From positions 1 through 36,216 of IMG/VR virus record IMGVR_UViG_3300035688_000030: a DNA stretch of 36,216 bases; one strand, written 5' to 3'. Source of the DNA: a virus. Numbering within the stretch: position 1 is the stretch's first letter; every line of letters begins with the position of its first letter. Below, in pieces: positions 9,699 through 33,082 of this stretch. The notes under the pieces are model-generated. The model did no database searches, was not told the DNA's origin, and saw nothing but the letters and a program-made list of their open reading frames with translations. A program made the position numbers and the translations under genes.

Positions 9699-9877
9699 GA
9701 TTTTGCCTCCTTGGCTTCTTCAAATTCTGTCGACTCACAAAACGGGCAGCAGGGCTTCTCAACGATCACGCGTGTTGGAGCGTCAGGCGAGAAGCTTGGA
9801 GGCGGCCGCTTCTCAATGCTTATTCGGCCTAGTATAGGAAAAGTTTTGAGGCACTGCGGGTTCTTGCACTTCCACAT
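9695..9877 (-). CDS. Zinc-ribbon protein (60 aa)
   Basis: 60 residues. Two Cys pairs, CKNPQC (about 4-9) and CCPFC (about 43-47), bracket a basic Pro-rich linker. Start overlaps the HerA-like gene stop, and the end AKEAKS contains the Shine-Dalgarno for the following gene. It is probably translated with the ATPase. Function unknown. Confidence 0.65.
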   Translation of the reverse strand: MWKCKNPQCLKTFPILGRISIEKRPPPSFSPDAPTRVIVEKPCCPFCESTEFEEAKEAKS

Positions 9878-12552
9878 CAGCTAGAAGCCTCCTTGATGCG
9901 GTCCTTAGCTCCAGAATAAGCGGAGTAAATCCACTGGCCATTCTCCTGCTTGCGATCTAGAAAGTGCATCTTAAGCAGCTCCACAAGCTCATTGCTGATC
10001 AAAGCTGCATTCGGCAAACTGCCATAATCCTGCTGCAGCCGCTCACGCACGGGCGTAAGCTTCCTAGCTGCGTCAAAGAATCCCTTAGCAACAAGCAACA
10101 GCAGGCGTCCGCGCCAATTGCCCTCATTAGTTTCCACAAGAGGCTTTGAAACTTTGATCGTGACCTGCGGGATCTCCTGGCTCACGACAACTTCAGAAGG
10201 CACGTTAGCATCTGGTTGCAGGAAAGGATGCGGTCCTATGCTCTTCGGAAACATCCTGCGAAGGACGCTTTTCAACTCGTCGTAAAGCTTCAGTTCCTCT
10301 TCAGTCCCTTTCAGCTTCTCCTGCAAGTCCTTCTTGACGGCCTCAAGAAAGCGCACTTCCTTCTCAAGTTTCTCCTTACTTTCCTTATCCTCCTTACTGG
10401 GAATAGGTGTCATGACACCTACGGCTTTATCCTCCGAAAGCATTTCCTTGACTGAAAGCTTGATGTTCACCTTCTCCAGGAGCTGCTTGACTTGCTCACG
10501 CAGCTGCCCGATCTCTTTCTCTTGGCGTTTGATGATTGACTCTTCACCCTTCTTCGCTTCAACGGCCTTGCTGATTTCTTCTCTGAGGTTTCCGAGGGCC
10601 TGACTGAGATCTGCGGTGAAGGGTTTCGCTTCGATGAGCGGCGTGTCGGCGCCGTGAGGACATAAGCGCTTGCGGACCGCAACAGTGTCGACTCCGGCCT
10701 TGTGCGCTACGATAAACGAGCCCGTTGGCAACTTCATGATTTGCTCTTCAGTTATGGCTAAGTGCTGTTTTTTGACGAGGAACATGAGGCCCGTCTTCGG
10801 ATCCAAGTCTGCGGGGCTCGTGAATTTGCCGAAAAGGTTAATGTTGCATTGGCTCAGAGGGCTCTTGTGCAGGTCTGCGGGGCGCTGGCTAATCAAGATT
10901 GGAAAAATGCCGATTTTGCGGCCGTGCTTCGCGATGAGGCTGACTCGAGAGAGGCTGGGCTTGCTTGCCTGATCCCAACTCTGAGGAGCGTAAATATCCG
11001 CTTCCTCAAGGACCAGGAAGAGGACGCGGCGATACTTCTGCTCGAGGCGATAAAGGTTCCACAAGAAGCTGCTGATGAAGTGCAGCTGGTCGACGTCGTC
11101 TTCGATGTCGCTCACGTTCACGACGAGGGATATCCCCTTTTCCAAGGCAGCTTTCACGTACTCATGAGCGAAGGCCGCCTCGAGGGGGAGATCCTGGTAG
11201 GGCCCGCCGATTACTACTACTGTGTTGAATTTGGCTTTCAAAGTGTTATGCGATACTAAAGGTGTCTCTCCACAAACTAAATTGTGAGTTTTAGGAACGA
11301 GTGTCCCGATTACCTCAAAGATACCTGTCACTTTTCGCACACTTGTGATTTTGACTGAGTCAAAATTGCTGCGGAAAGCATGTTTGTAGGAAAGATGCGA
11401 GCTTTTTACTAGGAGGACCCGGTACCAAGTTGGCTGCCTTGCAGTTATGAAATGTGTTCGTTTTTTCTCCACGATAAAATGCGGATCTGAAACCTTAGTT
11501 TCATTCAAACTTGCATGATAGCCTGCTCGCTCAGCTAAGTAACACAGTTGAATTGCAGCCCACTTTGAATAAGTGGCTATTGTGCGGCCGGAGCCATCGC
11601 ACTCAGCATACGCCTTGATGAAAGGGTGCAGCAGGTCATTATGAGCACGCATGATTACTTTGGGTATTGTCAGCGTTGAAGCTTTGCGTCCACTCTGTAA
11701 ACGCAACACTCTTTTGAGGAAGATACCGAGTGCTTTATTGCTGACTGTGTAGGTCCATTTGTCCGGTGAATCGATACCTTCTGCATCAAACAATTCTCGG
11801 GTTAGTTGTGCGAATCGCTTTCTGCGTTCTTGGTTCCCCTCAATGAACATCACTTTGTAGAGGTCTTTTGAAAGATGGCCATCAGCTAGGAAATAGCCCA
11901 ACCATTCACAGAGTTGAGGCGTAAGATGGCTTTGAATTTTGCACTTCGGTTTGTTTCCATGACGAGGATTCCAATATAAGTATTCATTGACGACAACTCC
12001 CCTAGAATCTTTTAGATTCTGCAACAACGGTAATTGGCTCTTCGGACGAAACAGCTGAGGAAATTTGCGGGGAATAAGCAGTCTATCGCCTACATGAATT
12101 TCATCCAATCTAATCCATGATACAGCATGATTTTTCAGAATCGCAACTTTATGATTAATTGTTCCCCTCAGTTTTCTGCCCATTCGAGCTTCTATCTCGA
12201 TTAATTCAGTGACCTTTTCTCTTGTTACTTGAGTGAGAGGTGTTGCTTTGAATCCTGAATGACCGTAAGACACTACTCTAATGGTCCCTTTTTTCAATCT
12301 CCTTTCCAAATCATCAGCTAAGACGACTTCTCCATTGCCTAAGAGAATTGGAGTGTCAGGTGTCACACAGTGCCATTCTGGTATGGGCTCGATGATGATT
12401 ACTTGTCCGTGCTGTTCCAGGACGTCTTCGACTAGGTCTGCTGCAGCGTTGCTTTTGCCGTGGCCACTCATCGCTAATATACTGAAGCGTAGGCCCTCAC
12501 GCTTGTAATCGTCAGTGTCGATAGCAAAATCAGAGGATAAACGTAATTTCAT
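9877..12552 (-). CDS. HerA/FtsK-like P-loop ATPase with intein
   Basis: The precursor has 891 residues and the spliced protein about 516. N-extein: Walker A AMSGHGKS (27-34) followed by QVIIIEPIPEWH (50-61), equivalent to the strand in HerA that reads D-x-H/D-GEY. The intein occupies 62-436. C-extein: Walker B VLFLVLEEAD (510-519), AKHGRKIGIFPILISQRPADL with a sensor Gln and Arg, then a long coiled coil and a winged-helix-like end (LISNELVELLKMHFLDRK). HerA ATPases translocate DNA, often with nuclease NurA; viral relatives also package DNA, but this virus has a terminase. A PD-(D/E)XK-like gene lies 2 kb upstream. Exact role unknown. Confidence 0.88.
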   Translation of the reverse strand: MKLRLSSDFAIDTDDYKREGLRFSILAMSGHGKSNAAADLVEDVLEQHGQVIIIEPIPEWHCVTPDTPILLGNGEVVLADDLERRLKKGTIRVVSYGHSGFKATPLTQVTREKVTELIEIEARMGRKLRGTINHKVAILKNHAVSWIRLDEIHVGDRLLIPRKFPQLFRPKSQLPLLQNLKDSRGVVVNEYLYWNPRHGNKPKCKIQSHLTPQLCEWLGYFLADGHLSKDLYKVMFIEGNQERRKRFAQLTRELFDAEGIDSPDKWTYTVSNKALGIFLKRVLRLQSGRKASTLTIPKVIMRAHNDLLHPFIKAYAECDGSGRTIATYSKWAAIQLCYLAERAGYHASLNETKVSDPHFIVEKKRTHFITARQPTWYRVLLVKSSHLSYKHAFRSNFDSVKITSVRKVTGIFEVIGTLVPKTHNLVCGETPLVSHNTLKAKFNTVVVIGGPYQDLPLEAAFAHEYVKAALEKGISLVVNVSDIEDDVDQLHFISSFLWNLYRLEQKYRRVLFLVLEEADIYAPQSWDQASKPSLSRVSLIAKHGRKIGIFPILISQRPADLHKSPLSQCNINLFGKFTSPADLDPKTGLMFLVKKQHLAITEEQIMKLPTGSFIVAHKAGVDTVAVRKRLCPHGADTPLIEAKPFTADLSQALGNLREEISKAVEAKKGEESIIKRQEKEIGQLREQVKQLLEKVNIKLSVKEMLSEDKAVGVMTPIPSKEDKESKEKLEKEVRFLEAVKKDLQEKLKGTEEELKLYDELKSVLRRMFPKSIGPHPFLQPDANVPSEVVVSQEIPQVTIKVSKPLVETNEGNWRGRLLLLVAKGFFDAARKLTPVRERLQQDYGSLPNAALISNELVELLKMHFLDRKQENGQWIYSAYSGAKDRIKEASS
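11245..12369 (-). other. Intein with LAGLIDADG homing endonuclease (375 aa)
   Basis: Begins with Cys62 (CVTPDTPILLGNGE, block A) and ends THNLVCGETPLVSHN before Thr437. Block B is GTINHKVAIL with the T-x-x-H motif. The two endonuclease motifs are LGYFLADGHL and IKAYAECDGSG. The C-terminal His-Asn and the +1 Thr are intact, so splicing and probably homing are functional. Insertion lies in the conserved ATPase core, between EWH and TLK, where excision is essential. Confidence 0.92.
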
Positions 12553-15019: not shown

Positions 15020-16381
15020 TTAGGCCTCTTTGAACTGTTGGATCCTATGATCAGCGGGGCCGAAATGTCTAACGCGGAAGATGGTCCCGCAAACTCGGCA
15101 GGTGATCTCTTCGATATCAATAGGCTCAGATTTGATGCCTTTAGAAGTTTCTGGACTTTGCGTTTCAGGGTTCTCTTGTGCTTCATCCACGTGGCCCTCT
15201 TCAAACGGGCCCACATGCTCCTCAGGAAGGGCGCCGGCCTTGGACTCGGCGACAACTTGCTCAGCACATTCAGCATCGTAATACTTGCCCTCGCCGAGAT
15301 GAATGGGCGTGCCTTCTATGGGCTCGCCACAACGAGCACAAGAGATCTGCTTCTCCGGACCGCGCGATTCTCTAGGAGGCCCTGCTTCTTCGTGCTTTTC
15401 TGGGATCTGCGGGATCTCTGGTTTAGGCTGGAGCTCGAGGATCCGTGTTTCGAGATCTCTCGTCGAAAGGCCATACTTCACGACCTCATTGGCCAAGCGA
15501 GTCTGGAGTTCAGGACTTTTTAGGGTTAGAAGCTGCAGAGCATGATAGAAGCTAACATTATGTAGCGCTACATAATGTTGAACTTCTTTCGGCAATTGTA
15601 ATAATCTGATGTGGTGCGAGACAGTTGATTGGTCTATTCCTAGTTCCTGAGCAAGTTTTTCTTGAGTCCACTGGAAAGCGTTGACGAGGATATCCAGTTT
15701 CTTCGCAAGTGTAATCGGGTCCTCTTCGAGGCGGTCCTTGTTTGTGATGACTGATTCTATGATGACTTGTTCGTCTGTTCGCTCGGAGACTTCTGCGGGG
15801 ATCTCCTTCCAGCTAAGTTGCTGGGCGCTTGTGAGCCGTAAGTAACCGTCGATCAGTTCATAGGTTCCAGGTTGAGGTCCTGGCCTTACTTTTATGGGGT
15901 ATTTCAAACCGTGCTTTTTGATGCTGTCCCGAATTACCTGCAGCTTCTCGTGAGTAAGGGCCTCTCTTGTTGGCAGGAATGTTGGAATCGAAATTGCTTC
16001 AAGCCGAATTGATAGGACCCTCGGTGTTAGGCTTGATGGTTCAGTTGGGAGCGCATTGCCAGGCTCTTTATAAGCAGGTTGGGAATCGATTCCGTGCCCT
16101 GATGGTTTCTGCTCTGAGGCCGTAGAGCCCTTTTTCACATAGGCACCGGGGACCTTCCAAGCTTTGGCGCCCTTCAAATAATCCTCCCCGCCCAAGTCAC
16201 GTGTGAGCCTGCAGACAGCGATGAAGTCAGGCTTATCCAATACTTTCTTAGGCTTCAGAATCGCCCAGAAGTACCCTGCCTTGTCCTCGCTGAAGTCAAG
16301 CATTTCGTCGACTGCACTGAGTTGCCAATTCAACGTGTCAGCGATTTTCTTGGCAAAATCACTGGGGATTTTCAATGACAT
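15020..16381 (-). CDS. parB: ParB-type centromere-binding protein with C-terminal zinc ribbon
   Basis: 453 residues. Residues ~1-110 form an N-terminal extension (ILKPKKVL...DFIAVCRLTRDLG...WKVPGAYV). The ParB N-domain follows (~120-215): ALTHEKLQVIRDSIKKHGLK, YPIKVRPG, YELIDGYLRLTSAQQL. An HTH segment WTQEKLAQELGIDQSTVSHHIRLLQLP (~235-262) and helices come next, then an acidic linker and zinc ribbons (CARCGEPI, CRVCGTIF). ParB proteins load at parS and spread with CTP; the usual GxxRxxA box reads DGYLRLTSA here. No ParA partner is found. A 26-bp palindrome inside the gene, repeated at 33.06 kb, is the likely binding site. Confidence 0.88.
   Translation of the reverse strand: MSLKIPSDFAKKIADTLNWQLSAVDEMLDFSEDKAGYFWAILKPKKVLDKPDFIAVCRLTRDLGGEDYLKGAKAWKVPGAYVKKGSTASEQKPSGHGIDSQPAYKEPGNALPTEPSSLTPRVLSIRLEAISIPTFLPTREALTHEKLQVIRDSIKKHGLKYPIKVRPGPQPGTYELIDGYLRLTSAQQLSWKEIPAEVSERTDEQVIIESVITNKDRLEEDPITLAKKLDILVNAFQWTQEKLAQELGIDQSTVSHHIRLLQLPKEVQHYVALHNVSFYHALQLLTLKSPELQTRLANEVVKYGLSTRDLETRILELQPKPEIPQIPEKHEEAGPPRESRGPEKQISCARCGEPIEGTPIHLGEGKYYDAECAEQVVAESKAGALPEEHVGPFEEGHVDEAQENPETQSPETSKGIKSEPIDIEEITCRVCGTIFRVRHFGPADHRIQQFKEA
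15554..15579. promoter_or_regulatory. parS-like palindrome 1 (inside parB)
   Basis: A perfect 26-bp palindrome: AACATTATGTAGC followed by its reverse complement. With flanks, bases 15551-15577 match bases 33082-33056 (reverse) at 25 of 27 positions. The two differences fall symmetrically, so both stay perfect palindromes. It encodes HYVALHNV in parB. It is probably the ParB site; binding is inferred. Confidence 0.7.
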
Positions 16382-18538: not shown

Positions 18539-18829
18539 ATGAATTTCAGAATAATAGCTATCGTCATTTCCTGCATCGCTTTTCTGCTTGCCTTATATAA
18601 TATCCTGAGTATTCCGAGCTATGCTTGGCAATACGTGACAGCTACGGAAGCATCTGTTCTGATCTCCAACATATGTGTTATCGTGTCTGGGCTCTTTATT
18701 GCTTGGTGGATTTATCATGACTATGAAGAGATCCAAAAACGATGGAAAGATAACAAGGTAGCGAGCGACAGAATCAATACACTTGAAGAAAGACTTAAGA
18801 AATTCGAAGAAGAAAATAAAAAGGCTTGA
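18539..18829 (+). CDS. Two-TM protein with coiled-coil tail (96 aa)
   Basis: Hydrophobic helices FRIIAIVISCIAFLLALYNIL (3-23) and ASVLISNICVIVSGLFIAWWIYH (38-60) are followed by a highly charged coiled coil (EEIQKRWKDNK...LEERLKKFEEENKKA). It lies 12 bp after the RHH-zinc gene and is convergent with the integrase, so the two plus genes form a short operon expressed from the lysogenic-type direction. Topology suits a holin or a superinfection-exclusion protein; neither is proven. Confidence 0.65.
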   Translation: MNFRIIAIVISCIAFLLALYNILSIPSYAWQYVTATEASVLISNICVIVSGLFIAWWIYHDYEEIQKRWKDNKVASDRINTLEERLKKFEEENKKA

Positions 18830-18842
18830 CAAGTTAAAGTAA

Positions 18843-19994
18843 CTATTGTCTCCGTAATCTTCCTTCTTTGAAGTCCTGGAGCATTAACTTGAAAGTTGCA
18901 AAGTCTTCCTCGCTTATGCCCAAACGCTCATTCTCAGCGGCCTTGCCACTGTAAACATTCACGTACGGTTCGAGCTTCGCGTATTCCTTCTCAACTACGT
19001 TTGCGTAAAGCTCAGGAGTCCGATCATAGGGTCCACCAACACTGTGAATTCCGCCTCTGTGGCCCATCATAAACTCGACATAGTCACTGTTTATGCCTCT
19101 TTCCGGCGGGCTACTTTCAGTTTTGAACATGCGTCTGAACATGTGACTGCGAAAAAGAAACGCGCGTTTATGGAGGCCCAATCTGCAGGTTTTTTGGTAA
19201 AAGATACATTCAAACTTCTGCCTAGTTAACACTGAACCCTTGCGAGTGATGAAAATGGCATCGCTTGATTTCTTCGCTTCGTTCAACCATTCCATCCGAG
19301 TCTTAAGCCACACACGAAGTTCTTGGCAACCGTCAGCTCCGATGAAGGTGAAATATTGGAAATTGTTCCTCTTACGTTCATCAAAATCTACGCGCAGCCT
19401 GTTAGCGCCACTGTCAAGCTCTTTCTGAACATAGGCCAGTTGATAATTGAATTTGTTGAGAACATCACCAATGCTCATGCCACTCTGCAGCATAACGAAA
19501 CAAATTGTCTTTTCCCTCTCGCCCAGTAAACCCAAAGCCCTCTTTGCTTCTGAAACACTCAGCTGCTCAATCGAAAACTTCCTCAAACACCTACCATTCC
19601 ACACGTGTCCATTGGACAAGTCAGCAGCGTGATAAGCAAAAAACTGTTTCAAAACATTGAACAAACTGTGCCGATAAGTGTCAGAACACCCGCTAAAATC
19701 AGGGTTATCACGACAAAAGCCCAGAATCAACCGCGAAGCCCAACTCCGCTCCCGAACAGTAACAACATTTCTTCGCTTCACATGTTCATTCAAAAACTCT
19801 TCAGGACTCAACTCAACATTCTTCACAATTTTCAGCCAACGAAAGAACATCGCCAAAGTTCTAGCATAATCCGAAAAGGAACTGCGACCAGCATACTTAT
19901 CCAAAAACTCCCTAACCACACTACTGCCCTCAACAAAAACAGCAACATTATCCCTCGTCACCCCATAAACATACACACAACCCCGCCCAACCAC
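18843..19994 (-). CDS. int: Tyrosine recombinase / integrase (archaeal type)
   Basis: 383 residues, GTG start. The N-terminal SAM-like core-binding domain (~25-150) precedes the catalytic domain. Visible residues: Lys in FDERKRNNFQYFTFIG, H-x-x-R in RSHMFRRMFKT, GHRGG, and Tyr in GGPYDRTPELY. At the site of the usual first catalytic Arg (sGLRisE) the sequence is QSGMSIGDVL, with no Arg. Related archaeal recombinases show the same pattern in my memory, but this should be checked. It integrates or excises the genome at att sites, so the virus is probably temperate. It lies alone on its own transcript from the promoter region at 20.0 kb. Confidence 0.88.
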   Translation of the reverse strand: MVGRGCVYVYGVTRDNVAVFVEGSSVVREFLDKYAGRSSFSDYARTLAMFFRWLKIVKNVELSPEEFLNEHVKRRNVVTVRERSWASRLILGFCRDNPDFSGCSDTYRHSLFNVLKQFFAYHAADLSNGHVWNGRCLRKFSIEQLSVSEAKRALGLLGEREKTICFVMLQSGMSIGDVLNKFNYQLAYVQKELDSGANRLRVDFDERKRNNFQYFTFIGADGCQELRVWLKTRMEWLNEAKKSSDAIFITRKGSVLTRQKFECIFYQKTCRLGLHKRAFLFRSHMFRRMFKTESSPPERGINSDYVEFMMGHRGGIHSVGGPYDRTPELYANVVEKEYAKLEPYVNVYSGKAAENERLGISEEDFATFKLMLQDFKEGRLRRQ

Positions 19995-20192
19995 AGACCC
20001 ACACCCTCAATCAAACCGACAAAGCTTATTAACAAATATAACACTTCCCTATACTTAACGGTAAAGCGGTAATATGGGGGCTAGTGTTTGTTAATAACTT
20101 CTATATCGATGAATGCATTAATGATAATTGAGTGCTGTCGAAGCGAGAATTAGGAGAGTGGAATAATCTCAGAATCTGTTGAACATGAAACT
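19995..20192. promoter_or_regulatory. Divergent intergenic region with 11-bp inverted repeat
   Basis: 198 bp between int (minus) and the 20193 gene (plus). TTATTAACAAA at 20026-20036 is inverted exactly as TTTGTTAATAA at 20087-20097, with ACACT/AGTG extending both arms. The region also has TATA-like words and a GGAG site at 20153. Candidate roles are an int promoter or operator, or recombinase arm-type sites. Confidence 0.5.
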
Positions 20193-20621
20193 TTGAAAGC
20201 CATAGGAAAAGAAATATTGAGAAGCAAAGGTTTTACGGACAAAGAGATCTTCGTAGAATTTCCAGTACTCTACGCGGGCCAAATCTTCGAGAAAGAATGT
20301 TACGGTGAACGTCCTCTCAAGATGACGGTTAAGCGAGGCATCATCGCCGACGTTATTGGATTGAATGAACAGCATAGTATTGTCATTGAGTGTGGCTCCA
20401 CGCCCTCAGATAGGTTATGCCAATTGAAGCTGTTTTTTGATGAAGTTCTATTTCTTCCTTATGTTAAAACTATGGGTCGTCCTGAAAAAGACATCCTTGA
20501 ACTGAACAGTCAAATCACATCACTCACTGAACAAAACATGCAGCTACAACGAGAGAATGAGTGGTATAAGCAAAGGCTGGACGCTTTAGAGACTAAAATA
20601 AGAGAGGCACTTCGAAAATAG
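20193..20621 (+). CDS. Predicted nuclease-like protein with coiled coil (142 aa)
   Basis: Start is uncertain: TTG at 20193 is the first conventional start, but the open frame begins at 20154 after GGAG, with no ATG/GTG/TTG, so sequence such as SESVEHETLKAIG may belong to it. The core GIIADVIGLNEQHSIVIECGSTPSDRLCQLKLFFDEVLFLPYV has the D...E-C-G layout of restriction-endonuclease-like folds, with Gly in place of the usual Lys. The C-terminal ~45 residues are a coiled coil (LNSQITSLTEQNMQLQREN). Its function may be regulatory rather than catalytic. Confidence 0.6.
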   Translation: MKAIGKEILRSKGFTDKEIFVEFPVLYAGQIFEKECYGERPLKMTVKRGIIADVIGLNEQHSIVIECGSTPSDRLCQLKLFFDEVLFLPYVKTMGRPEKDILELNSQITSLTEQNMQLQRENEWYKQRLDALETKIREALRK

Positions 20622-20942
20622 GGCGGGTCTGGGAGGGCGTAATCCCTGGTTGAAGAGGGCTAGTTTGAAGAGGATTGAAAATTAGTGCTCTTCAATGGGG
20701 TTTTTGCAGTGCTGAAAACTCTGGTTGAAGAGCGCCCGTTTCAAGAGCGCCCAATCCCTGGGAGGGAAATCTTTAAGGTTGAGAAAGAGAGTCGTTATCA
20801 GGGCTGCTGGCTGCCGAACCAACCTTTTTCAAGCCTAAACCTCTTGAAAAACCGGTGGCCAGCGGCTCTGTTGATACGCTTCATTTCATTGACAAACGTT
20901 TAAATCTGCCAGTGCCAACAGTTCTTTTAGAGGTTTAGGCAA
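20622..20942. promoter_or_regulatory. Non-coding region with repeats and an RNA hairpin
   Basis: 321 bp with no convincing gene. The first half holds direct repeats: CTGGTTGAAGAG at 20646 and 20721, AATCCCTGG at 20641 and 20753, AAGAGCGCCC at 20728 and 20743. The second half holds an 11-bp outer stem (20806-20816 with 20853-20863, G-U pairs allowed) and a perfect 9-bp inner stem (20825-20833 with 20843-20851). The loop region GCCTAAACCTCT (20833-20844) is exactly complementary to AGAGGTTTAGGC (20929-20940), the Shine-Dalgarno region of the next gene. A TATA-like ACGTTTAAAT lies at about 20896-20905. Confidence 0.6.
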
Positions 20943-21206
20943 ATGCAAGACGTAAAAATAGAAAAGAGGCCAGATTTGGCTTTAGTTAAGAAAAAAGATT
21001 TTGAGCCAGTGTGCTATAACTGCAGCAGCCAGTGCGACCGCTATGATAAATGCAAAGGAGCGCAGAAGATGGCGAAGGCCGTTCAAGTCTGGTGGAACGG
21101 AAAACTAGTTGATATCATCTCAGACTTGGAGGCACGCAAGATCCTTGCAGACGGAAATGCAGTGCAAATCGCCGAGAACATGATTAAGATAACGCCTAAG
21201 TGGTGA
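20943..21206 (+). CDS. Hypothetical Cys-containing protein (87 aa)
   Basis: ATG at 20943 after AGAGGTTTAGGC. FEPVCYNCSSQCDRYDKC carries four cysteines in a C-x2-C-x3-C-x5-C arrangement, consistent with a zinc or iron-sulfur knuckle. The rest, VQVWWNGKLVDIISDLEARKILADGNAVQIAENMIKI, is a compact alpha/beta segment. First gene of the plus-strand operon ending with the ASCH protein. The upstream RNA structure suggests translational control. Function unknown. Confidence 0.65.
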   Translation: MQDVKIEKRPDLALVKKKDFEPVCYNCSSQCDRYDKCKGAQKMAKAVQVWWNGKLVDIISDLEARKILADGNAVQIAENMIKITPKW

Positions 21207-21210
21207 TGAA

Positions 21211-21459
21211 GTGCAGTCGAAGGGAAAGTTCTGGCCGCGCATAAGGCCGTTGATCTGGGAGAAGGCCCAGGATCTCTTCCAGGCAGAAGAGGCCAGGCAT
21301 ATGGAAGAGGATTTTAAGGGAATAACAGCAGAGAGGCACGAGCTGCGCCAGGCAGGATATTTTTATACCGCAAAACTGATAGTTTTGAGGGATCTCTGGT
21401 TGCAGAAGAAAGGCTTACCAACAAGTGATGAGGAGGCTCAACAGCATGGCCATTTTTAA
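21211..21459 (+). CDS. Hypothetical helical protein (82 aa)
   Basis: The start at 21211 follows the upstream stop by two bases (GTGATGAAGTGCAG). Sequence MQSKGKFWPRIRPLIWEKAQDLFQ and ERHELRQAGYFYTAKLIVLRDLWLQKK is mostly amphipathic helix. It overlaps the next gene by 14 bp, and its AGGAGGCTCAA provides the downstream Shine-Dalgarno. No family recognised. Confidence 0.55.
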   Translation: MQSKGKFWPRIRPLIWEKAQDLFQAEEARHMEEDFKGITAERHELRQAGYFYTAKLIVLRDLWLQKKGLPTSDEEAQQHGHF

Positions 21460-21775
21460 GCGGAAGTATATTCCCCTAGTTTTGGATGGTCGAAAGGTTC
21501 AGACGCGGCGTGTCCACAAGCAAGAGTGGCAAGTTGGCAAAACTTACGCGGTCCGGGACACGTGGTTCAGCAAGCCCCAAGGCCGCATAGTTGTTCTGCG
21601 AAAATTCAGGCAGCGGCTAGGAGATATCTCCACTGAAGATGTGAGAAAAGAAGGATTCAGCACCTTGGACGAGTTTGAGGAAGCGTGGATAAAAATTAAC
21701 GGCTCCTGGGACGCAGACAAAGTAGTGATCGTCTACGAGTTTAAGCTAGTTCGATCGCCAAGTCTCCAGAGATGA
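21446..21775 (+). CDS. ASCH-domain protein (109 aa)
   Basis: ATG at 21446 is eight bases after AGGAGG. MAIFKRKYIPLVLDGRKVQTRRVHK, GKTYAVRDTWF and RIVVLRKFRQRLGDIS...EEAW match the ASCH domain (pseudouridine-synthase-like beta-barrel), in which G-R-K-x-Q-T-R-R is the hallmark. ASCH proteins bind RNA or modified nucleosides, and some hydrolyse N4-acetylcytidine. It ends inside the 3' end of the convergent fibre gene (35-bp overlap). It may act on RNA during infection; substrate unknown. Confidence 0.8.
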   Translation: MAIFKRKYIPLVLDGRKVQTRRVHKQEWQVGKTYAVRDTWFSKPQGRIVVLRKFRQRLGDISTEDVRKEGFSTLDEFEEAWIKINGSWDADKVVIVYEFKLVRSPSLQR

Positions 21776-24095
21776 GGAATATCTTCTTTTTCGGGTCAGA
21801 TTTATTCATGGGTACGGCCTCATCCCCGATGATCATCATCATTTTCCCAGCCGGTGTGATTGGAAGCGCAAAATCTTTGAGGACCAGAAGCACAAGCGGA
21901 TGAGCAACACCTATAATCGAAACAATAATAATGTCGTTGCCTGTGCACTGGTCGAGGATACTTAATAAGCCGCTGATGCTTAAGCCCTCGAGTCCCTGAC
22001 AGGAATCTATGATGGCTACTTGTGCTTGAACAAAAAGTGAGTCTAAGCTTTCACCTATGTCTGAAACTGTTATAGCTCCGCTACCAGTAACTGAAACACC
22101 GTCAATTCCTTGCCCATTCTCGGTTATTGGAACTTGAGCCTGAAGAGACAATATATCAGAACCCAACCCCGAATCAGAGACGGGAACATTGGCTTGAGCG
22201 GCTATTCCATCCAACCCAGAACCTGCCTCGCTTACTGGGACCCGCGCCTCAACTGCGATGGCATCATTTCCCGCTCCCGTTTCGACAACAGGAATTTGAC
22301 CCTGAATAGTTGCAGCATCAGAGCCTGAACCTACATCGCTTACCGGTATCTGGGCTTGAAGAGATATAGCGTCACTTCCTTGTCCTGTTTCGCCAACTGG
22401 AATCTGCCCTTGAACGTTTAATGTATCTGTGCCTGAACTTACATCAGAGATCGGAATTTGACCCTGAATCGCTGCCGTGTCTGAACCTGAACCAGAATCT
22501 GTAACTGGTACTTGCGCTTGAAGGCTAAGATCATCCGAACCTGAGCTTGAGTCTGACACGTTTATGGGTATTGCACCTGCACTCACATCTATACTATCTA
22601 AGCCGCTTCCAGAATCTGCAATGGGCAATTGTGCCTGTATTCCGACACTATCGGAACCTGAGCCCACATCACTTATCGGCAGTTGCGCTTGAATACTGAG
22701 AGCATCAGTACCTGAATTTGTTTCTGGGACCGAGACCTGCGCTTGAATCCCGATGGTGTCAGAGCCAGAGCCATTATCTGAAGCTAGAACTTGGTTAGCG
22801 CCCAATACAGCGTCTGTTCCCAAGCCCGTATCGGCCACTGTTAGTTGAGCCTGAAGAGACAAACTATCTGAGCCTGCGCCGCTATCGACGACTGGAATCT
22901 GAGCTTGCAGAGAAACATCGTCTAAGCCTGAACCCGCATCTGGAACGTTAATGTAAGTGTAAGCCTCTAGTATGACGTTTATGATGATCCATGAGGCTGC
23001 AGTGTAGGCTCCGCCGCCGTTCGTGTGATGTTCCGCGTCAAACTCATGCTGATCTGTGAGTATTAAGCTGCCGCTGCGGAGGCGGGTCCAAGTCGTCGTA
23101 GTTGTTATTTGTTCGCTATCGGTGACTATACTGCTGCTGGTGGCATCATAAAGTGCGTTGTATGCGTTCCAACTTGCGCTAGAACTCTTCATTGTTGCTT
23201 CATAATAGAATGTTAAATTAGGGGGCAAATCGCTCTTGTCAAGAAGGGTTTGATTGTAGATACGTATGTACCCAGTAGAAGTCGTTGATGCTGGGTCTGC
23301 GGTTTTCTTCCGCAGTTGCGTTTTAGTTATTGTTCCGCTTTGCTGGATGATTAGCCTTGCGCCTGTTACCGTGTTTGTTTTGCCGCTTGAACTGCGTTTT
23401 TTAACTACGTATTCCTTTCCGTCTATAAGCGTGATGGAGCTTGAACGCACGCGTCTAGGCACCGCATTTGTGGTGGCAATTTCGACGACCTCTATGTTAT
23501 CAGTCTTGTTCCATAAGCTCACTTCAACGCTTTTGCCGCTTTGTGAACTGTAGAAGCAAGCCTCAAAATATGAGGTTACAGTGCCATCGCGGGGTGCTGA
23601 CTCATAAAGGTATATCGGCTGGTTCAAAAGGTTAACTGCTGTAGCGCTTGTTGTAGTTTCATTAGCTGCGCCGATTTCTATTTGCTCCTCTCCCGACGTC
23701 CACTCTCCATATTCCGTTATGTCATCGATAATTATGATACGGGCTGCTCTTACCCAACACGGATTCGAAAAGCCAGTTTTAAGCTGAAATTTGAACTCAT
23801 GGAAGCTAGTGAGCGAGATAGGTCCGGACCTTACGCGGGTAGTAATAGAAGATGACGTAGAGACTTCACTGCCACTAACGGCTGCACCGCTTGTAACGTC
23901 ATAGAGCTGAGCATAAACAGTACCAGGTGCTGCTGCAATGTTCAAGTCCGCCTCAAAATAGAAAGTTGGTAAAACAAACTTGCTGGTGTCGAGGTAGCCG
24001 TTTTGCAGGTAAGCATTTGCGGGGTCAACGTAACTAGCGCTAAGTGAGCTTACGTTAGCGTCCAGCAGGTCGATCTGATACTCAACTTTCGCCAA
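21741..24095 (-). CDS. Repeat-rich tail fibre/adhesin (784 aa)
   Basis: The last gene of the structural operon. Residues ~1-380 comprise about three beta-sandwich-like repeats of ~125 residues (LPTFYFEADL, SYFEACFYSS, LTFYYEATMK mark equivalent strands, each followed by a TRVRSG/RRVRSS/TRLRSG turn). Then 19 tandem repeats of 18 residues, consensus IPVSDSGSGSDSLSLQAQ, span DNA 21915-22952. A short C-terminal domain of ~60 residues ends the protein. Asp/Gly-rich turns at a fixed period suggest a calcium-binding or beta-solenoid stalk. Inferred role: host recognition fibre. The repeat count probably varies by recombination. Confidence 0.82.
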   Translation of the reverse strand: MAKVEYQIDLLDANVSSLSASYVDPANAYLQNGYLDTSKFVLPTFYFEADLNIAAAPGTVYAQLYDVTSGAAVSGSEVSTSSSITTRVRSGPISLTSFHEFKFQLKTGFSNPCWVRAARIIIIDDITEYGEWTSGEEQIEIGAANETTTSATAVNLLNQPIYLYESAPRDGTVTSYFEACFYSSQSGKSVEVSLWNKTDNIEVVEIATTNAVPRRVRSSSITLIDGKEYVVKKRSSSGKTNTVTGARLIIQQSGTITKTQLRKKTADPASTTSTGYIRIYNQTLLDKSDLPPNLTFYYEATMKSSSASWNAYNALYDATSSSIVTDSEQITTTTTWTRLRSGSLILTDQHEFDAEHHTNGGGAYTAASWIIINVILEAYTYINVPDAGSGLDDVSLQAQIPVVDSGAGSDSLSLQAQLTVADTGLGTDAVLGANQVLASDNGSGSDTIGIQAQVSVPETNSGTDALSIQAQLPISDVGSGSDSVGIQAQLPIADSGSGLDSIDVSAGAIPINVSDSSSGSDDLSLQAQVPVTDSGSGSDTAAIQGQIPISDVSSGTDTLNVQGQIPVGETGQGSDAISLQAQIPVSDVGSGSDAATIQGQIPVVETGAGNDAIAVEARVPVSEAGSGLDGIAAQANVPVSDSGLGSDILSLQAQVPITENGQGIDGVSVTGSGAITVSDIGESLDSLFVQAQVAIIDSCQGLEGLSISGLLSILDQCTGNDIIIVSIIGVAHPLVLLVLKDFALPITPAGKMMMIIGDEAVPMNKSDPKKKIFLISGDLAIELA
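21915..22952. repeat. 19 x 54-bp coding repeats in the fibre gene
   Basis: A 54-base period encodes 18-residue units V-P-[IV]-x-D-x-G-x-G-x-D-x-[IL]-x-[ILV]-Q-[AG]-Q on the minus strand. DNA copies have diverged considerably, so the period is selected at protein level. Two units carry one or two extra residues (near 22560 and 22080). Confidence 0.9.
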
Positions 24096-24098
24096 AAG

Positions 24099-24557
24099 TC
24101 AGCCGCCCTTGACCGTGATTAATTCTGCATAAGCATTTTTCATTTTGGTTATTTGCGATGGACTTAGTGTTCCTTCAACCCAGATTTGCAGCACGTCATG
24201 TGTCGGCTGCGCCCAGAACACCCATTTAATCTTTATTCCCGTGGCTGATTCAATGGCACTCCAAGCGTCATGTAGGTCTTTGACTTGAAAAACAGTGAAG
24301 CCTATTCGGCTCTTGGGATAGAGCCCAGCGTCTATTTGGCTCATAAACGCGTCAAGTGCAGCCTTCTCCACGTCGGATAATTGCCTAGCGCTATGAACAA
24401 TTATTGTGTCCTGATTTGCACTGAAACCGCAGAACCAGTCGTTACTATCAGGCCGAATCTTGAATGCCTCAAATAGTTTAACCATCAGTGTCCAGTAGTC
24501 CCAATTCTCGCTAAGTTTCGGATACGAATACTGAAAAAGGGGGATCAGACTCATCAT
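24099..24557 (-). CDS. Tail-associated protein, unknown (152 aa)
   Basis: 152 residues: MMSLIPLFQYSYPKLSENWDYW, then an alpha/beta region with SANQDTIIVHSARQLSDVEKAALDAFM and a second half with VFQVKDLHDAWSAIESATG, VFWAQPTHDVLQIWVEGTLSPSQITKMKNAYAELI. The two halves look like a duplicated ferredoxin-like unit (strand, DVEKAALDAFM versus SPSQITKMKNAYAEL helix). It lies between fibre and tail-tip genes. Possible fibre assembly or attachment factor. No family recognised. Confidence 0.6.
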   Translation of the reverse strand: MMSLIPLFQYSYPKLSENWDYWTLMVKLFEAFKIRPDSNDWFCGFSANQDTIIVHSARQLSDVEKAALDAFMSQIDAGLYPKSRIGFTVFQVKDLHDAWSAIESATGIKIKWVFWAQPTHDVLQIWVEGTLSPSQITKMKNAYAELITVKGG

Positions 24558-24587
24558 CTTTCACTGTCCTTATAGCATAAGTTCTAC

Positions 24588-25193
24588 CTAAGACCACGTT
24601 ATGGTGACAGTAAGAACCCAAGTTTGCCCGCTTGTCTTTGTACCCTGCGCTGAGACCTTGCGATTCAGATTCAGTCCCGAATCATCGGCGGCGTTTACGA
24701 CTGTAAACTCGTTCCAAGCGTAGTTGGCTTCTGTGCTGCCGTAAGTGCTTCGCCATGAAAGTGCTTGCCCGCTTCTGCTCGGATAACTTGCGTCCATGAT
24801 TCTCCAGAACTTGTTTGTTGCCGCTTGAAGTCCTGTCTGTGTTGCATTTTCGCCTGTGGCTGAGTCGCCAACTCCTGTTCTTGCGTTTGTGTTGTCCCAT
24901 TTTGTCGGTGTTGCGATTCCGGCGAGTAATTCTTCGAATGCTTGTATGCCTTCGTTGAGACAAACGTTGCCTTCGAATTCCACTGCGCCTAAGAATCGCT
25001 CGGGAAACATGGCAATGAGTTCTTCAACGCTCATGCCCTGTCTGCTCAGTTTTGCGATCTCGTCCGTTGGATCGTCAAACTTGTGTATCTGCCATGTCGT
25101 CTTGCGCTTCATGCCGTCATGTATTTCAATCTTCTGTCCTCTCATGACGCTTACAGCGTCACTTCCTCTGACTTTATCAGATTGTCTAAGCAT
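24588..25193 (-). CDS. Virion tail-tip protein, unknown (201 aa)
   Basis: 201 residues. Contains VEFEGNVCLNEGIQAFEELLAG, WDNTNARTGVGDSATGENATQTGL and a beta-rich end SYPSRSGQALSWRSTYGSTEANYAWNEFTVVNA...TWVLTVTITWS. The NT-x-x-x-GVGDSAT segment followed by beta strands is a pattern I associate with environmental virus structural proteins of the tail tip; identity is not certain. The ATG overlaps the stop of the 51-residue gene. It lies in the tail module on the late transcript. Confidence 0.6.
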   Translation of the reverse strand: MLRQSDKVRGSDAVSVMRGQKIEIHDGMKRKTTWQIHKFDDPTDEIAKLSRQGMSVEELIAMFPERFLGAVEFEGNVCLNEGIQAFEELLAGIATPTKWDNTNARTGVGDSATGENATQTGLQAATNKFWRIMDASYPSRSGQALSWRSTYGSTEANYAWNEFTVVNAADDSGLNLNRKVSAQGTKTSGQTWVLTVTITWS

Positions 25194-25341
25194 TCGCCGC
25201 AGCCTCCACTATCGCGGGAAGAGCCAGCAGTTGTTTCTTCGTTGGATTTATCCGTATGCTCTGATCCGTGCTGATGAGCATTAACTGTCCGTCATCCAGC
25301 TTTATGAGTTCCCATTCCGCGTTCTTACAAATTGATTCCAT
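25186..25341 (-). CDS. Small tail-module protein (51 aa)
   Basis: ATG at 25341 with AGGAGTG upstream. MESICKNAEWELIKLDDGQL, MLISTDQSIRINPTKKQLLA, LPAIVEAAANA. It overlaps the next gene by 8 bp and fills the space between two structural genes. The beta-then-helix pattern is protein-like. Probably a minor structural or chaperone protein; family not recognised. Confidence 0.6.
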   Translation of the reverse strand: MESICKNAEWELIKLDDGQLMLISTDQSIRINPTKKQLLALPAIVEAAANA

Positions 25342-25376
25342 TTTCTATTCACTCCTGTCATGATGATTTTTCATGA

Positions 25377-25589
25377 CTATGATCTTGTGATGCTCATGAC
25401 ACTTCCAGCGCTGTAGCTGAAAGTTAAAGTGAAAAGCGTCGTACCACCCGACTCTTTGAAGATGATAGTATTTATTGAGCCGTCGTCATTCCAAGTGAAA
25501 TCAACTTGCTTAATCTTCTTGCCCGTCGGCGCAGCGGAGATGCTACTGAGAATCGCATCATGAATTGCCTCGCCACCCCAAACACTCAT
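25377..25589 (-). CDS. Small tail protein (70 aa)
   Basis: 70 residues: MSVWGGEAIHDAILSSISAA then beta strands IKQVDFTWNDDGSINTIIFKESGGTTLFTLTFSYSAGSVMSITRS. The beta half resembles short domains repeated in phage tail-tip proteins. The ATG overlaps the hub stop (ATATGAG), and GGTGAG is the Shine-Dalgarno. Probably a virion component. Confidence 0.6.
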   Translation of the reverse strand: MSVWGGEAIHDAILSSISAAPTGKKIKQVDFTWNDDGSINTIIFKESGGTTLFTLTFSYSAGSVMSITRS

Positions 25590-28294
25590 ATTGGTCCACT
25601 CACCTTTTCCTTACGTTTTCTACAGATCTTCATCCATAGCCGGTTCAGTTTGAAGCTCTTAGGACGCAACTTCCCGAAGAGCGCGAGATCCCCGTTTTCG
25701 TCAAGCAGCATTATCGCCTTCCCTTTTGGATTGAGGAAAGCAAGCCCCTTTCCCAGATTGAGGTTTTCGGCTTCTGTGATGCGAAAATCGTTTTTGAATA
25801 TTATATCTGTGGCATGCCAATTCGTGCAGTTTACAGCACCAGTTGCAAGACTGGAAGTTGTTATCCCTCCCGGGAATGTTACAACATCATTGAAATTATG
25901 GGGTATGCGCGCTTCATCGAATGTTCCAGAAGTAATGGCGCTGGCACTATGCGTGTGTGATGATGGTGGGTAAGTGCTTGGCTTGTCTGGAATATTCGCC
26001 CAGAATGCAGCACTCCAGAAGTCAGTGATTTTAGAACGCGTTAAGTCAGGAATTCGGGCAGCATCGAATATGCCTGAGGTTATGATGCCAGCGTCTGCAG
26101 TTACGTTCTGAAGAATCCTACCTGAAGTGATAACTTCAGTTGCTCCGATGCGAAGAGCCAACGCGTCGAAGTTATCGTCAGTCTTCAGGACGTCAGCAGC
26201 AGAACGATAAAGCTTCACGTCAGCGCCCGCGGATCCAGGACCCAGGTAGATGCCAGTAGTGTCTATTTGGACGTGGGGGTAAGTTGAGATTTTGATTAGA
26301 AGAGCGGTTCTTGCTGAAATGTACTCTGCGCGCATCCAAGACCAGTAGTAAGTATCATCACCAAGCTGTCCGACTCCAGGGTTAGTTGGAGCAAAAATGT
26401 GGTTTAGAGTAGCTGAGCCTGCTTTGTTCTTCGTGCGGAACCAGAAATATTCTGCTCCGTCTGAAAAGGGCCCCAAGTAAGATGGGCTTAGCCAGCCTGA
26501 AATGCGGTCAGAACCCCCTAAGCTCGGACCAGACCAGATAGCGCCGGATTCGTCGCCTGCTTCATGCGTCGTCTTATGCGGTGGGGATTGAGCGGCTAAG
26601 ACTGCGATTATTTGTGAAAGTGCTGAGCCTTTTCCAAGCTTGACTCTCGCAAGCTTTTCAACCGTAACTGTCGTCGCTCTGAGGCCGTAAAGATAGTCTG
26701 CCAGGAGAGGCGGAACCTTTCCCAAGTCAAACGTGAGTTCGAGCGTTTGGCTATTTGCATAGACGTGATAGTCAACAGCTTCGATGCGGTAATCCCCGTT
26801 AATGTTCTCGTTGTACAGATGGACGTGAATCTTATCAGCTGCCAGAGGTGGCGTCGTGCCGTAATCTATGATTGTGCTTCTCACGGTCAAATAGTCTGCT
26901 GGATCCTTGAAGTAAGCGAGGAGAGACTTTGCCCTCAAATCACATTCATTGTCAGAAGCAAGCTCATCATCAGTTTCAGTGAGCTCACGCAGGCCATAGA
27001 GGGCCTGGCTAGCAGAGTCTTGTTCTAACGCTGAAAATCTCCCATTCTTGAAGTAAAGCTGGTCGATATGAAGTGTTGAGCGCCCGAGCCCGCTTTTAGT
27101 CACATAACCCTCGATGTAGACCAAAACCTTGTTTATGTTCTTCCAGTTGGGGCTCCCTGTCTTCGTCCAGGCAGGCGTCGTTCCAGACGCTGTCTCGTAT
27201 GGTTTGCCGATTTTCTCGTCATGATAAATCCAGCGGACGTCTGCAGCTTCGCTTTTGGTGAGGACGAATTCTTTCTGGAAGTAGTTGCTATCATCAGTCA
27301 TCAGTTGAATCCGGATCTTGCTGCAGCGATATTCACACCCGGAATCCAAGTCTTCGCCCGTTGCTCTCAATACAGCACATATGCTCTGATACCCGTAGTC
27401 GCCGCCGCATCCCATTGGCGATGCTAACGTATATTTTGCCCAGCCGCTCGTCGTTCCTGCTCGGCCTGTGCGGAGCTTTATGCTTGCCGTTCCAGCAACT
27501 TTGTCGCTTGAATCAGCCGTAAGTGTTGAGCCGCCTGCGTCATGCGTCCAGCCTGTTATCGTTTCAGTCCAAGCGTCCATGTCTGAAGGGTTAACCTTCG
27601 CTGCCATCCCGTAAGCTATGATCTTGTTTCGGACCCTGTGAATGTCTCTTTTGTAACTGCCAACCTCAACATTATCGACCAGACTTATCGACGCGCTCTT
27701 GCTGTTCTTTGCGAAAAACTCGAACTTCCCATCTGGCGCCACGCGAAAATCGTAGCCTATGACGCCAGCTTTGTCGCTGCTTTCAGCAATGTATTTCAGG
27801 ACGTCCCAGAGAGGCGTATTCTCGTATTCCAGCTTGTTAAACGTCGTGTCAGTGTTTTCAACAAGCTCCGTCCCGCCTCTATTATGACTCAAAATCGCAT
27901 AGTTATCCATGAGGTCCTTGACTACGGTCTCGCCCTTGCTCGAGGAGTAGTCTTTAGTGATGACCCGCCTGAACAGTTTCTCGCCAAGGCACCTGCCTGA
28001 AACAGTAACGTAGTTCTCGTCTGGGTTGGGATGCTCGTATTCGACGCTTTCAACGTGGCAAGCTATTATTGGGGGGAGGTTTGAGCCGCGGCCGATGTTT
28101 ATGCTCCCATCCAAGCCCACCGTGATAGGCGAGGATCCGCCCGGACTGTACTTCTTATCCCAATTCTGCAGCTTCACGCTGAACGAAGATACTTCCTTCG
28201 TGCAACCCAGGTGAACGTTCAGGTCTATGATGTCGCCTTGGGGTGGAGTGACTGAGCCGAAACTCATGCTTACGACGGGAAGGGCAACGCTCAA
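25586..28294 (-). CDS. Baseplate hub / tail-tip protein (902 aa)
   Basis: TTG start immediately after the upstream stop. Residues ~1-230 resemble gp27/gpD-type hub domains (KLQNWDKKYSPGG, CHVESVEYEHP, VTVSGRCLGEKLFRRVITKDY). Residues ~240-420 look like a carbohydrate-binding beta-sandwich (WTHDAGGSTLTADSSDKVAGTASIKL ... HIDQLYFKNG). A second hub-like stretch (LTVRSTIIDYGTTPPLAADKIHVHLYNENINGDYRIEAVDY) follows. The last ~300 residues are fibre-like, with the repeat ITSGTFDEARIP/ITSGIFDAARIP. Such proteins cap the tail tube and carry receptor-binding parts. It follows the tape-measure gene as expected. Confidence 0.82.
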   Translation of the reverse strand: MSVALPVVSMSFGSVTPPQGDIIDLNVHLGCTKEVSSFSVKLQNWDKKYSPGGSSPITVGLDGSINIGRGSNLPPIIACHVESVEYEHPNPDENYVTVSGRCLGEKLFRRVITKDYSSSKGETVVKDLMDNYAILSHNRGGTELVENTDTTFNKLEYENTPLWDVLKYIAESSDKAGVIGYDFRVAPDGKFEFFAKNSKSASISLVDNVEVGSYKRDIHRVRNKIIAYGMAAKVNPSDMDAWTETITGWTHDAGGSTLTADSSDKVAGTASIKLRTGRAGTTSGWAKYTLASPMGCGGDYGYQSICAVLRATGEDLDSGCEYRCSKIRIQLMTDDSNYFQKEFVLTKSEAADVRWIYHDEKIGKPYETASGTTPAWTKTGSPNWKNINKVLVYIEGYVTKSGLGRSTLHIDQLYFKNGRFSALEQDSASQALYGLRELTETDDELASDNECDLRAKSLLAYFKDPADYLTVRSTIIDYGTTPPLAADKIHVHLYNENINGDYRIEAVDYHVYANSQTLELTFDLGKVPPLLADYLYGLRATTVTVEKLARVKLGKGSALSQIIAVLAAQSPPHKTTHEAGDESGAIWSGPSLGGSDRISGWLSPSYLGPFSDGAEYFWFRTKNKAGSATLNHIFAPTNPGVGQLGDDTYYWSWMRAEYISARTALLIKISTYPHVQIDTTGIYLGPGSAGADVKLYRSAADVLKTDDNFDALALRIGATEVITSGRILQNVTADAGIITSGIFDAARIPDLTRSKITDFWSAAFWANIPDKPSTYPPSSHTHSASAITSGTFDEARIPHNFNDVVTFPGGITTSSLATGAVNCTNWHATDIIFKNDFRITEAENLNLGKGLAFLNPKGKAIMLLDENGDLALFGKLRPKSFKLNRLWMKICRKRKEKVSGPI

Positions 28295-33055: not shown

Positions 33056-33082
33056 CATTATCTAGCGCTAGATAATGTTAGC
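33056..33082. promoter_or_regulatory. parS-like palindrome 2 (intergenic)
   Basis: A perfect 22-bp palindrome, CATTATCTAGC plus its reverse complement (33056-33077), lies between two small genes. Read in reverse with its flank, it matches 15551-15577 at 25 of 27 positions. The two sites lie about 17.5 kb apart, nearly opposite on a 36.1-kb circle. Intergenic placement and conservation favour a protein-binding site over a terminator. Confidence 0.7.

Follow-up and report, generated by a model that had tools for sequence, protein, structure and literature searches.

A candidate Shine-Dalgarno-masking leader RNA in an operon of a tailed virus, probably of Bathyarchaeia

In this study, we describe an RNA hairpin and a complementary Shine-Dalgarno (SD) region at the head of a small operon of a tailed virus whose host most likely belongs to Bathyarchaeia. 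Our preferred explanation, which we hold with somewhat better than even confidence, is that of a structured 5' leader RNA that controls translation of the operon's first gene in cis by masking its SD. In this model, a long outer stem would support an inner hairpin that presents a loop complementary to the SD. The closed state would be an H-type pseudoknot over the outer stem, in which the SD region pairs with the loop and probably also with the 3' arm of the inner stem; this would bury the SD core (GAGG or AGGAG, in both the window and its diverged relative) so that ribosomes presumably could not load, while in the open state the inner stem would form and leave the SD free. The model takes the hairpin to be transcribed together with the gene, the loop:SD pairing to lower translation, and some factor or condition to shift the balance between the two states. 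It is built on sequences, predicted structures, statistics and compensatory change in one diverged relative.

The virus and its operon

The window, that is, the whole stretch of DNA analysed, is a 36,216-base IMG/VR virus record that encodes a portal protein, a terminase and a major head protein, and is therefore, by gene content, that of a tailed virus. It also holds, at 9877-12552, an 891-aa ORF with matches to intein splicing, LAGLIDADG and HerA/DUF87 helicase domains. The tyrosine integrase gene lies near the hairpin (18843-19994). A tblastn search with this integrase matched solely viruses of archaea, and the 82-aa gene of the operon has relatives on seven Bathyarchaeota contigs, so that a host within Bathyarchaeia is most likely; a search of genome contigs with the integrase gave no match. 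Viruses of Bathyarchaeia, some of them carrying integrases, are known from metagenomes (PMC10848311).

The operon is read on the plus strand and begins with the 87-aa gene that stands under the SD (20943-21206). Its product has no Pfam match, shares the start MQDVKIE with its counterpart in the diverged relative L087 and is barely alike in the remainder (15/64 identical); phages and ten operon-relative records gave no relative of it, and among viral contigs only a near-identical twin contig did. A role for this product as regulator of its own leader is unlikely, given how little of it is conserved between the two carriers. Next come the 82-aa gene (21211-21459), which is the conserved marker of the operon and occurs in Bathyarchaeota genomes, and, at the operon end, a gene for an ASCH-domain protein (21425-21775; PF04266, E 6.4e-6). 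The ASCH protein had been put forward in the earlier note as a candidate RNA-binding regulator, and a search for the family in virus records at first looked consistent with an association with the hairpin, but tblastn then found ASCH adjoining the 82-aa gene at four hairpin-less Bathyarchaeota loci (L097, L098, L099 and L103), and the proposal is not supported. The upstream regions of L097, L099 and L103 contain no SD complement longer than 6 nt.

The hairpin and its complement at the Shine-Dalgarno region

In the predicted plus-strand fold, an outer stem of 17 bp leads through an asymmetric internal loop to an inner stem of 9 bp, capped by an apical loop of 9 nt. The 5' arm of the outer stem (20800-20816) pairs with the 3' arm (20853-20869) through 13 Watson-Crick and 4 G-U pairs. 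Between them lie an 8-nt internal loop (20817-20824), at which place L087 has a small side hairpin, the 5' arm of the inner stem UUUUUCAAG (20825-20833; seven pairs identical in L087), the apical loop CCUAAACCU (20834-20842) and the 3' arm of the inner stem CUUGAAAAA (20843-20851), for which the 5' arm and positions 20919-20930 compete. The perfect 9-bp inner stem described earlier thus stands, and the outer stem, previously given as 11 bp, has 17 with its four G-U pairs included. The folding z-score of the hairpin is -6.2 to -6.3, a value equalled by none of 200 shuffles, and in a 70-nt fold scan of both strands the hairpin is the best plus-strand place in the window, while places on the minus strand at 16430-16610 fold more strongly. 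The latter is a repeat tract (GACCAAGCAGCCGACTCAGCC...) inside a DUF7666/Imm5-like gene, with the strongest predicted minus-strand RNA folds of the window. The noncoding stretch 5' of the hairpin carries a direct repeat of 32 nt in two copies (20641-20747) that are 81% alike and lie 75 nt apart, and the same region holds TTGAAGAG motifs and a 17-nt inverted repeat.

The segment GCCTAAACCTCT at 20833-20844 has its exact reverse complement, AGAGGTTTAGGC, at 20929-20940, which is the SD region (AGAGGUUUAGGC) and stops 2 nt short of the start codon, ATG 20943; on re-reading the sequence, the positions reported before for all three proved correct. Among 206 starts of ORFs of at least 50 aa in the window, the longest SD complement is this 12-nt one, the runner-up reaching 8, and when the upstream sequence was shuffled 20,000 times, a complement of 12 nt arose once. 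The observation of a hairpin with an SD complement is thereby confirmed as real and well above chance.

All nine bases of the apical loop are complementary to the SD region, so that the loop supplies 9 of the 12 long-range pairs and only three bases of the inner stem are overlapped; the 12-bp pairing alone is compatible with an intact hairpin, as a pseudoknot. The complementarity, however, extends further: a downstream arm of 27 nt (20914-20940, plus strand), whose GUUCUUU is unchanged in L087, is 81% complementary to 20833-20859. This extended complementarity takes up the entire 3' arm of the inner stem, so that either the inner stem or the extended pairing can form, but not both. In the predicted structures the outer stem need not open for the SD to be paired, and the inner stem alone competes. 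The earlier idea that the hairpin and a 12-bp pairing exclude each other is thus retained for the inner stem against the extended pairing and given up for the outer stem, and the modelled switch is of the pseudoknot type, rather than one of the entire hairpin against a long-range pairing.

Calculated energies of the separate helices in the window and L087 are -11.5 and -14.4 kcal/mol, respectively, for the loop alone with the SD, and -21.6 and -22.0 kcal/mol for the extended duplex versus -4.8 and -4.6 kcal/mol for the inner hairpins. In the case of nested folding, whose energies exclude pseudoknots, both states of L087 lie within 0.2 kcal/mol (-60.4 and -60.2), and in the window the open, SD-free state is favoured by about 15 kcal/mol (-62.0 versus -46.6), because nested folding has to break the outer stem; this preference speaks against the masking model.

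Compensatory changes in a diverged relative

L087 (IMGVR_UViG_3300035688_000080, G004; minus strand) is a virus contig first found via its terminase, and carries a start region of the operon's first gene like that of the window. Its leader comprises an outer stem (3491 to 3396), an inner stem CAAG/CUUG, a loop with CCUAAACUC and the SD region AGGAGUUUAGG. When the outer stems are aligned without gaps from the inner end, 12 of 12 pairs are kept in the two sequences, with three double compensatory changes (A-U/G-C, C-G/U-A and U-A/A-U) and three single consistent changes via G-U. In the loop:SD helix (20834-20844 with 20929-20939), all 11 pairs are kept with two double compensatory changes, CCUAAACCUCU:AGAGGUUUAGG in the window versus CCUAAACUCCU:AGGAGUUUAGG in L087. 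Under a simple null, in which an equal number of substitutions is placed randomly on one arm, these patterns have values of 0.0004 for the outer stem and 0.006 for the loop:SD helix. Two independent sequences, the window and L087, enter this comparison; the twin contig, 99.9% identical there, is uninformative and was left out.

The viruses of the window and L087 are, by their sequences, far apart: in the 82-aa gene, identity at third codon positions is 42%, and of 55 conserved residues 21 have the same codon. By contrast, GTTTAGGCAAATGCAAGACGTAAAAATAGAAAA, which runs from the SD through the seventh codon and slightly further, is unchanged in L087 although the proteins then diverge, and the start region is therefore either constrained as nucleic acid or more recently exchanged. 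At 2336-2875 on its minus strand, directly before ASCH, L087 has an ORF, recognised by eye, for a LAGLIDADG-like homing endonuclease. Its first residues, MAVFK, are like the start of the ASCH protein, as though a short duplication had accompanied its insertion.

Chance complementarity combined with shared ancestry, by which L087 would have kept the pairing by luck, could appeal to the fact that there are two sequences only; against the combined pattern of compensatory changes and the shuffle results, we give it hardly any probability at all. The very stable outer stem, conserved as RNA, could also be accounted for by a hairpin that mainly protects or paces the mRNA, through stability, RNase processing or ribosome standby, with the loop:SD pairing of minor importance; since this leaves the concerted change of loop and SD unexplained, we regard it as quite unlikely. 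That the pairing is kept despite the changed letters suggests a genuine RNA control element that has not been described before. What is found, in two independent sequences only, is an SD-complementary loop that is correctly placed and conserved by covariation, as expected in general of a cis-acting RNA that sequesters the SD. Alternative structures of which one sequesters the SD, as in a riboswitch, are likewise found by prediction and covariation. The two alternative RNA structures postulated in the earlier note are in this way backed by covariation in L087, a check that the note had named, and also by the sense-strand specificity described below.

An RNA rather than a DNA element

Folding of the sense strand is much stronger than that of the complementary strand, with z-scores of -6.3 versus -2.4 in the window and -6.0 versus -3.3 in L087, as expected if G-U pairs matter. 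As the sense strand alone folds strongly, this argues for an element acting as RNA rather than as a recombination core, an origin or a protein-binding palindrome. A DNA-level site, either a recombination core for the tyrosine integrase encoded nearby at 18843-19994 or an inverted repeat for replication or protein binding, is suggested by that neighbourhood and by the inner 9-nt arms that flank a 9-nt spacer like a tyrosine recombinase core site. This reading is nonetheless very unlikely in view of the G-U pairs and the single-strand-biased folding in both sequences, the passage of outer-stem changes through G-U, and the location of the second complement at the SD instead of at a random place. 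A tyrosine recombinase core site in particular was rejected, the strong sense-strand preference in folding and the G-U pairs being at odds with its symmetry.

Two further observations concern the DNA of this region. The twin contig (IMGVR_3300035660_001408) matches the window over 18828-27763, with 99.9% identity in the integrase-side part and 98.5% overall, while identity in the adjoining ParB region is only about 80%. The transition at 18828 is sharp and adjoins the integrase gene, in the manner of a module exchange. The window also has a perfect 20-bp palindrome, ATTATCTAGCGCTAGATAAT, at 33057-33076, and ATTATGTAGCGCTACATAAT at 15557-15576, inside the ParB-like gene (15020-16381), which differs by two symmetric changes that keep the palindrome; the twin has TCTAGCGCTAGA in its ParB region. 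No such 20-bp palindrome is expected in the window by chance, and the palindrome is a candidate parS site.

Candidate promoters and transcription-based alternatives

Whether the hairpin and the gene lie on one transcript bears directly on the model, and candidate TATA-like boxes, read from the sequence, flank the hairpin on both sides. P1, CTTTAAGG (20771-20778, plus strand), lies 22 nt 5' of the hairpin, and from its TTTAAG to the hairpin foot is a distance of about 27 nt. L087 has a similar CTTAATG at a P1-like place. P2, GTTTAAAT (20898-20905, plus strand), lies between hairpin and SD, includes TTTAAAT (20899-20905) and aligns with CTTAATTA in L087, so that both sequences have a TATA-like box at this place, a point against the cis model. 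P1 would start the leader near the hairpin foot, whereas P2 would give a leader of 13-17 nt and turn the hairpin into a separate trans RNA. In L087, the leader is located downstream of a divergent small gene (read by eye), which puts the operon promoter no more than about 240 nt 5' of its ATG.

A separate hairpin small RNA made from P1, pairing in trans, antisense-like, with the SD of an mRNA that starts at P2 with the short leader UUUUAGAGGUUUAGGCAAAUG, would account for the boxes that precede the hairpin foot and the SD block of the window by about 27 nt each, with similar boxes in L087, and the loop:SD covariation fits trans pairing equally well; masking of an SD by an archaeal small RNA has a precedent in sRNA162 (PMC3510493). 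We nevertheless think it unlikely: no terminator-like signal was found 3' of the hairpin (with a scan consensus of the bacterial type), TATA-like strings are common in AT-rich DNA, and the close linkage of loop and target favours pairing in cis. Transcription attenuation, in which the pairing would decide on terminator formation before the operon, fits with mutually exclusive pairings and was rejected as highly improbable, as the bacterial-type scan gave no terminator-like site in 20600-20960 and no attenuator peptide was found, the sole plus-strand ORF of at least 60 aa across the hairpin (20685-20903) having no counterpart seen in L087. Masking of the SD by a leader in cis is our preferred reading.

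Distribution of the element

In the limited collections searched, the element was found in the window, its twin and L087 only. A covariance model (R1), which recovers these three, gave nothing in 257 Bathyarchaeia genomes or in 398 genomes drawn from its phylum. In viral contigs, exact 15-mer and relaxed hairpin patterns returned 69 and 17 stretches, respectively, with a downstream complement only in the twin and L087, and a search by SD/start pattern found the complement in the same pair alone. DNA matches to the SD region in the 257 Bathyarchaeia genomes were put down to chance, the best of them having no upstream complement and looking like coding sequence.

Close relatives of the operon are without the leader element, which also weighs against the model. 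Six loci (L093, L094, L095, L096, L100 and L101) have no hairpin and share another element, approximately GCGATTCTAACC(C)ATTTTTAGA, upstream of the first operon gene, in most followed by GCCTAA and often with TTCACAT/TGTGAA repeats further up; this is perhaps a promoter and operator.

Discussion and comparison with known systems

Our analysis points to an RNA element that is likely new but belongs to a familiar general type, the SD-masking leader, and is present in two independent sequences. To our knowledge, few regulatory RNAs have been described for Bathyarchaeia, and a limited literature search found no description of an SD-masking leader in an archaeal virus. If real, the element would be a compact translational switch with defined pairing in this host class, and its leader gives exact mutations for reporter assays as well as a covariance pattern to seek in new metagenomes. 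The bolder proposal, a ligand- or protein-sensing pseudoknot switch of Bathyarchaeia viruses that would be the first of a new RNA family and perhaps time the small-protein/ASCH operon by host state, we consider doubtful.

Among translational riboswitches, preQ1-II and SAM-II have an H-type pseudoknot that pairs with the SD. The SAM/SAH riboswitch is a further one (PMC7367207), and the likeness to the predicted viral leader lies in a pseudoknot between the loop of a hairpin and a segment further down, at the SD. These riboswitches are compact, short aptamers whose ligand is known, whereas the viral leader has a 17-bp stem and a pairing of 9-18 bp and is without an Rfam match: at gathering and relaxed thresholds, Rfam 15 gave nothing credible for the window or L087, and thus no known aptamer. 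In the rep leaders of IncB/IncI-alpha plasmids and in ribosomal-protein mRNA pseudoknots, an upstream hairpin loop pairs near a downstream start, but here there is no rep or ribosomal protein gene and no known counter-transcript.

Structured 5' leaders have been related to translational control in archaea in the case of L7Ae, which regulates itself via a k-turn in 5' UTRs (PMC5539422), and the viral leader, as proposed, would be alike in this regard. It differs in its internal loop, which, as read from the sequence, has AACCAACC opposite a single C and no tandem G-A pairs; an L7Ae leader was rejected, as tandem G-A beside a 3-nt bulge is missing. Finally, the archaeal sRNA162 masks a ribosome binding site in trans (PMC3510493), and hiding of the ribosome binding site by base pairing is what we propose for the viral leader as well. 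While sRNA162 pairs through the unstructured linker of a separate RNA, the viral element would do so through a hairpin loop encoded directly upstream of its target.
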